Both the position numbers and the translations under genes were made by a program. A stretch of DNA of 8,689 bases. Origin: a bacterium. Lineage in GTDB: Bacteria > JACRDZ01 > JAJRWM01. The stretch covers positions 1 through 8,689 of the forward strand of contig JAJRWM010000087.1 in NCBI GenBank assembly GCA_024276815.1, written 5' to 3'. The notes under the pieces are model-generated. The model made no database searches, was not told the DNA's origin, and worked only from the letters and a program-made list of their open reading frames with translations. This document shows positions 6,242 to 6,961 of this stretch, in pieces; position 1 is the stretch's first letter, and each line of letters starts with the position of its first letter.

Positions 6242-6961
6242 ATGAGTTATAAAAAAGTATTGTTGAAACTGAGCGGGGAAATGCTGGCGGGTAACCAGGA
6301 CTTTGGGATTGATCCCGTTGTTTCCAATTACCTGGCTCTGGAAGTAAAATCTCTGGTTGAAATTGGCGTAATTCCCTCTATCGTCATCGGCGGAGGTAAC
6401 ATTTTCAGAGGCATCTCGGCGGCTTCGCTGGGGATGGATCGGGTTGCCGGTGATTATATGGGGATGCTGGCGACCATAATCAACGCTTTGGTGCTACAGG
6501 ACGCTCTGGAGAAACAGGGGCTGTTTACCAGGGTGCAAACGGCTATCGAAATGTAAAGGGTCGCTGAGCCTTATATCCGCCGCCGGGCGATTCGCCATCT
6601 GGAGAAAGGCCGTATCGTTATTTTCGGGGGCGGAACCGGTAATCCCTATTTTTCGACTGATACGACCGCGGCTCTCCGCGCCATTGAAATCGGGGCCGAA
6701 GTGATTTTGAAGGGCACCAAGGTTGATGGCATATACTCCGCTGATCCTTTTGTTGTTCAGGACGCGGAAAAGTATGAGGAAATAACTTATCAGGAAGTTT
6801 TGCAAAAAGAGCTTAAAGTGATGGATTAGACGGCTATTTCTTTGTGTATGGATAATTGCATACCGGTTATTGTCTTTGATATTAACACGCCGGGCAATCT
6901 GAAGAAAATTGTTGAGGGACAGCGTATTGGTTCCCTGGTAAGGAGAGGAAACCGTGGTTGA
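6242..6961 (+). pseudogene. pyrH: UMP kinase, full length but with two in-frame stop codons
   Basis: Uridylate kinase of the amino-acid-kinase fold, making UDP from UMP; normally essential. The frame from ATG 6242 to TGA 6959-6961 is 239 codons, exactly family length. It is interrupted by TAA at codon 105 (6554-6556) and TAG at codon 196 (6827-6829). There is no frameshift or deletion. Motifs before the first stop: KLSGE (9-13), IGGGNIFRG (about 49-57), [22 protein letters not shown] (starting at 65), and TRVQTAIEM just before the TAA. After it: [30 protein letters not shown] (131-141), [10 protein letters not shown] (160-169) and LKVMD just before the TAG. After that: [17 protein letters not shown] and GNLKKIV. 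Both stops sit at positions that vary in the family. As strictly read, only the first 104 residues (6242-6556) are made, lacking much of the nucleotide site. ATG 6242 has AAAGAG 5 bases upstream. frr overlaps the end by 8 bases. I label it a pseudogene by convention; read-through or sequence error are live alternatives. Confidence 0.85.
6941..6948 (+). promoter_or_regulatory. Ribosome binding site of frr inside the end of pyrH
   Basis: AGGAGAGG ends 5 bases before the GTG at 6954, supporting GTG as the start codon. It lies in the last codons of the pyrH frame, so frr translation does not strictly depend on pyrH being read to its end. Confidence 0.65.

Follow-up and report, generated by a model that had tools for sequence, protein, structure and literature searches.

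In-frame UAA and UAG codons, mostly opposite glutamate, in housekeeping genes of an uncultured bacterium

In the nuclear code of the trypanosomatid Blastocrithidia, UAA and UAG (UAR) specify glutamate, UAA also serves as a stop, and UGA is read as tryptophan (PMC12153298). In-gene UAA stands at ~2% and in-gene UAG at ~1.5% in this organism, cognate tRNA-Glu genes are present, and the release factor is altered (PMC12153298). In ciliate and other eukaryotic codes UAR is read as glutamine, and codes with context-dependent termination have been described (PMC4967479). The stop reassignments reported from bacteria all concern UGA, which has changed to tryptophan or glycine, and a large screen was by its own statement unable to detect stops with an additional amino-acid meaning (PMC8629427). 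We found no report in the open-licence literature of bacterial UAA or UAG read as glutamate.

Blastocrithidia is the nearest known parallel to the genome described here, which resembles it in that UAA and UAG apparently stand for glutamate inside genes (UAR falls mostly opposite glutamate at 13 of 18 sites) and in that UAR also terminates. The differences are the rarity of UAR inside genes, a search for cognate tRNAs that returned none, the ordinary look of RF1 and RF2, the use of UGA as a stop, and the fact that the organism is a bacterium. With the ciliates it shares stop codons that apparently have a sense meaning, and in some ciliates both uses occur; however, the residue here is glutamate rather than glutamine, and no context signal was found at position +4. 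As in the bacterial UGA reassignments, a bacterial stop codon is apparently read as sense, but UAA and UAG are affected here and UGA is not.

The window, that is, the whole stretch of 8,689 nucleotides analysed, is the entire contig C8 of a MAG from an uncultured bacterium (2.39 Mb in 246 contigs, 91.4% complete). It carries pyrH, the gene for UMP kinase, as one 239-codon read-through frame (6242..6961, +) that translates without an indel to a terminal TGA at 6959-6961 and contains TAA at codon 105 (6554-6556, +) and TAG at codon 196 (6827-6829, +). With X placed at both stops, the product scores 320.7 bits against the UMP kinase profile TIGR02075 over positions 1-232 of 233, a full-length match above the cutoff of 243.9 bits by which we assign proteins to this family. 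The preliminary description had placed both stops and their flanking motifs correctly, and its account of a full-length frame free of indels is borne out by the translation and the profile score. No other pyrH turned up in the MAG, where the sole further match is a 36%-identity stretch in another ORF. The redundant copy that the preliminary description had offered as one explanation was not found in these 2.39 Mb (246 contigs, 91% complete), and some 40 other sites would stay unexplained if pyrH alone had undergone two recent mutations. A local explanation, through decay of pyrH or a second copy, was rejected because a single copy was found in the MAG and many genes are affected. Among relatives, 56 of 60 have pyrH, and the best 30 of these 56 matches are all uninterrupted, with both same-phylum matches among them. 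Both interrupted positions had been called tolerant, which holds for codon 105 (R37 Q26 K12 N8 E7 in 109 homologues) and less so for codon 196 (S60 A35 T9 M3 P1 H1, likewise in 109), where neither glutamine nor glutamate occurs.

Two more in-frame stops in the window had been overlooked. The tsf gene, encoding elongation factor Ts, is a read-through frame at 5604..6209 (+) that ends at TAG 6207-6209 and has an in-frame TAG at codon 183 (6150-6152, +), in a column where 91 of 99 homologues have glutamate; NIIISRFVRYSLGGKTVN, from the conserved C-terminus of the protein, follows this stop. The other is a possible TAA (5379-5381, -), seven codons into a gene at 3453..5402 (-) that a profile search marks as TPR and that we take, from our own reading of the sequence, to be DUF2723-like. 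Whether this site counts, and whether the read-through frame applies, depends on translation truly starting at ATG 5400-5402. In the same window frr ends in TAA TAA (7509..7514, +), where UAR acts as a normal stop, and the remaining gene ends make ordinary use of TAA, TAG, and TGA.

That UAA and UAG are read through or suppressed, an option raised in the preliminary description, finds support across the genome. We scanned stretches of 80 contigs of the same MAG (735 kb) with dicodon scores, a scan based on single-codon scores having been noisy and having overlooked pyrH. The dicodon scan gave 79 same-frame stop junctions in the 735 kb, many of them ordinary gene-end/gene-start pairs, and 40 mid-gene in-frame stops were kept (22 TAA and 18 TAG), picked from the junctions by eye, which is a weak point of this count; three of the 40, those in tsf, gapA, and the DUF2723-like gene, were identified by reading or by homology instead of the scan. 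Mid-gene TGA occurs at most twice, and both cases are doubtful (L140:7341, +, and L192:4902, -). Two control genomes of the same phylum, scanned in the same way, gave 15 junctions in 229 kb (G001) and 19 in 260 kb (G003), by eye mostly gene ends. The genes with mid-gene UAR include tsf, gapA, aroF, ptsI, gltD, menA, and ilvB, and four additional stops lie in loci on other contigs (one in glmU, one in a speD-looking gene, and two in prmC). The distribution of the 40 sites over contigs does not depart from chance (P = 0.185), and on this ground a contaminating sub-bin was rejected. A homology scan, with a best-frame filter against shadow frames that a few nevertheless passed, covered 36,500 aligned codons without a single frameshift candidate. 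With a pattern that extends over the genome and hardly involves stops other than UAR, these data fit read-through or suppression.

The residue opposite the stops was checked in homologue columns or solved relatives at 18 sites. Glutamate is the sole or commonest residue at 13 of them, namely, in tsf, gapA, aroF, ptsI, gltD, ygiQ, menA, and ilvB, in the nuoG-like and fabK-like genes, in the gene for an HD-GYP-like protein, and twice in prmC, with some of these assignments based on two to four solved structures from related species. The five others are pyrH codon 105 (Arg/Gln/Lys), pyrH codon 196 (Ser/Ala), glutamine synthetase (Lys), plsX (Thr), and glmU, where solved relatives have phenylalanine and one pairwise reference has glutamate. 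In pairwise alignments with unanimous references and real frames, 10 stops fall on glutamate and 2 on lysine, matches to rRNA loci and shadow frames having been set aside by hand. By our own arithmetic on the codon use of this genome, glutamate codons should supply only ~22% of the one-step changes that lead to UAR, and chance nonsense therefore fails to explain the bias toward glutamate. Stops make up 10 of 1720 aligned glutamate positions (0.58%), and 1 of 434 where two or more references agree.

What is observed, then, is a codon pattern: in-frame UAR in many housekeeping genes, almost no UGA, and mostly glutamate at these positions in relatives. We give an even chance to the explanation that UAR, besides terminating, is decoded as glutamate at a small fraction of glutamate positions, and that what decodes it lies outside the assembly. 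UAA and UAG would then have two meanings, termination at gene ends and glutamate inside genes, with intragenic UAR taking up roughly 0.2-0.6% of glutamate positions. The decoder may be a near-cognate tRNA or else a suppressor-type Glu-charged tRNA that is missing from the assembly, which is 91% complete. At UAA and UAG, such a Glu-charged tRNA would be in competition with RF1 and RF2. Some of the ribosomes inside genes would read on and insert glutamate, and at gene ends some read-through would occur, up to a later stop. A GAR-to-TAR change would be almost silent under glutamate decoding, so UAR codons would drift into genes, and other G-to-T changes would be purged by selection. Somewhat more tentatively, we propose that in this bacterium a takeover of UAA and UAG by glutamate is under way and incomplete, with both still terminating, which would make this the first bacterial UAR change, and one with RF1 retained. 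If true, it would be a natural case of the ambiguous intermediate stage of a code change with RF1 intact, and it would raise the question of how a cell decides between sense and stop when one codon carries both.

The tRNA set, the release factors, and the gene ends weigh against glutamate decoding of UAR. None of 33 tRNAs (one of which has an unread anticodon) in the 91%-complete assembly carries a UUA or CUA anticodon, a search by loop pattern for a suppressor returned no tRNA-like match except the known tRNA-Lys, and a very permissive ARAGORN run produced noise only. The Trp, Tyr, and Asn tRNAs, which must exist, are also absent, and since several obligatory tRNAs are thus missing from the assembly, a suppressor may be missing from it as well. 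A plasmid search using the fumarase gene gave no match. A tRNA-Gln(UUG) is present in two adjacent copies that differ at a single base (L257:1501-1575 and 1681-1755, +, contig C140), and in this pair a T-G pair closes the anticodon stem. Both release factors are present, RF1 with PVT and GGQ intact and RF2 with SPF and GGQ intact; at these motifs, to which the comparison was confined, neither is altered, unlike the release factor of Blastocrithidia. Among 347 gene ends counted, 141 are TAA, 69 TAG, and 137 TGA. Most genes accordingly end in UAR (210/347), which rules out complete recoding of TAA and TAG with loss of their stop meaning. Tandem stops are not enriched, a second stop following within 5 codons after 45 of 141 TAA, 12 of 69 TAG, and 50 of 137 TGA ends. 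From the UAR share at gene ends and the lack of tandem-stop enrichment, we conclude that termination shows no adaptation.

An artefact of assembly or library is the alternative that survives best. G-to-T and C-to-A consensus errors, arising from low coverage or oxidised DNA, would have produced the stops, and the codons would be sense codons in the cell. G-to-T is a common error type, and a single such change at the first base converts GAA or GAG into TAA or TAG; one change of this kind suffices at every glutamate site. The fragmentation of the MAG (246 contigs) and the ordinary-looking termination machinery also favor an artefact, and the serine column at pyrH codon 196 would fit a change from TCG to TAG. 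The base change at the glutamate sites is the same as in the 8-oxoguanine-type G-to-T errors of low-coverage assemblies. Such errors, however, should be matched by a rise in G-to-T missense, which is not seen, and TGA, Tyr, and Ser nonsense sites are too few. From codon use, base errors should give ~7 TGA among 40 sites and many sites at tyrosine and serine codons, whereas there are at most two doubtful TGA sites, none at tyrosine, and possibly one at serine (pyrH codon 196).

The missense comparison was made at conserved columns, for which stretches of E. coli K-12 served as further references because an invariant-column test on seven genes had been underpowered; its counts are small, and the natural background varies with base composition. 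With that in mind, this genome has 28.2 G>T changes per 1000 and the two controls have 27.1 and 29.4; at columns on which at least two references agree, the figures are 9.15 for this genome and 12.35 and 9.40 for the controls. An error rate of 0.58% predicts an addition of 5.8 per 1000, and ~53-63 changes would be expected at the columns with two or more agreeing references versus 32 seen, again on small counts and a composition-dependent background. Changes of D>Y number 3 in the forward and 6 in the reverse direction. Neither C-T nor A-G mismatches occur in the tRNA stems, one spurious tRNA call excepted, and the 23S rRNA, over its first third, mostly matches at the conserved letters, with one G-to-U in GGGUGA. 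In that 23S rRNA (L334:1501-4521, -, contig C149), GGGUUAUAG stands against the family consensus GGGUGAUAG, either as a natural variant or as a base error. Since G-to-T missense is not raised, base errors of a random or oxidative kind are a poor fit, and the missense, tRNA-stem, 23S, and frameshift tests together speak against a general base error, on small counts. Base errors in the assembly, which the preliminary description had listed, would need to spare missense positions, but they retain about a third of our confidence because the counts are small (1 stop among 434 glutamate positions) and the background depends on composition. If the stops are artefactual, some draft genomes contain glutamate-to-stop changes, and these disrupt essential genes and lead annotation astray.

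Insertion of glutamine, for example by a tRNA-Gln(UUG) that misreads UAA and UAG, was suggested in the preliminary description, as an inference only, and we think it very improbable. The two near-identical adjacent copies of this tRNA, the single C-to-T step that separates CAA and CAG from the stops, and the glutamine found in 26 of 109 homologues at the first pyrH site would all suit it. Against this, the conserved columns opposite UAR hold glutamate, no aligned stop in a real reading frame falls on glutamine, and the second pyrH site has no glutamine in its column; moreover, C-to-T changes at glutamine codons should then outnumber G-to-T changes at glutamate codons. C-to-T damage at glutamine or arginine codons was rejected, as the nonsense falls on glutamate. 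If the population is decaying or a relic, the stops could be genuine nonsense mutations in dead or truncated genes, which would account for their presence in many genes and at a seemingly higher frequency than in the same-phylum controls. This is if anything less probable still, given the lack of frameshift candidates, the intact conserved motifs on both sides of the stops, the presence of the stops in single-copy essential genes, their concentration on glutamate, and G>T missense at conserved columns unlike that of a decaying genome.

Decoding of UAR as glutamate may also touch a gene that acts on termination itself. PrmC methylates release factors, and its gene, which adjoins prfA on contig C226, has two in-frame UAGs (L263:637 and L263:1150, -); we speculate that these could feed back on termination. 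Among the 80 sampled contigs, mean GC content is 49.2% in those with in-frame stops versus 45.8% in those without, some of which may be foreign to the bin. The assembly also encodes a tmRNA (L335:2609-2960, -, contig C28), with the tag peptide ANQYDYALAA.
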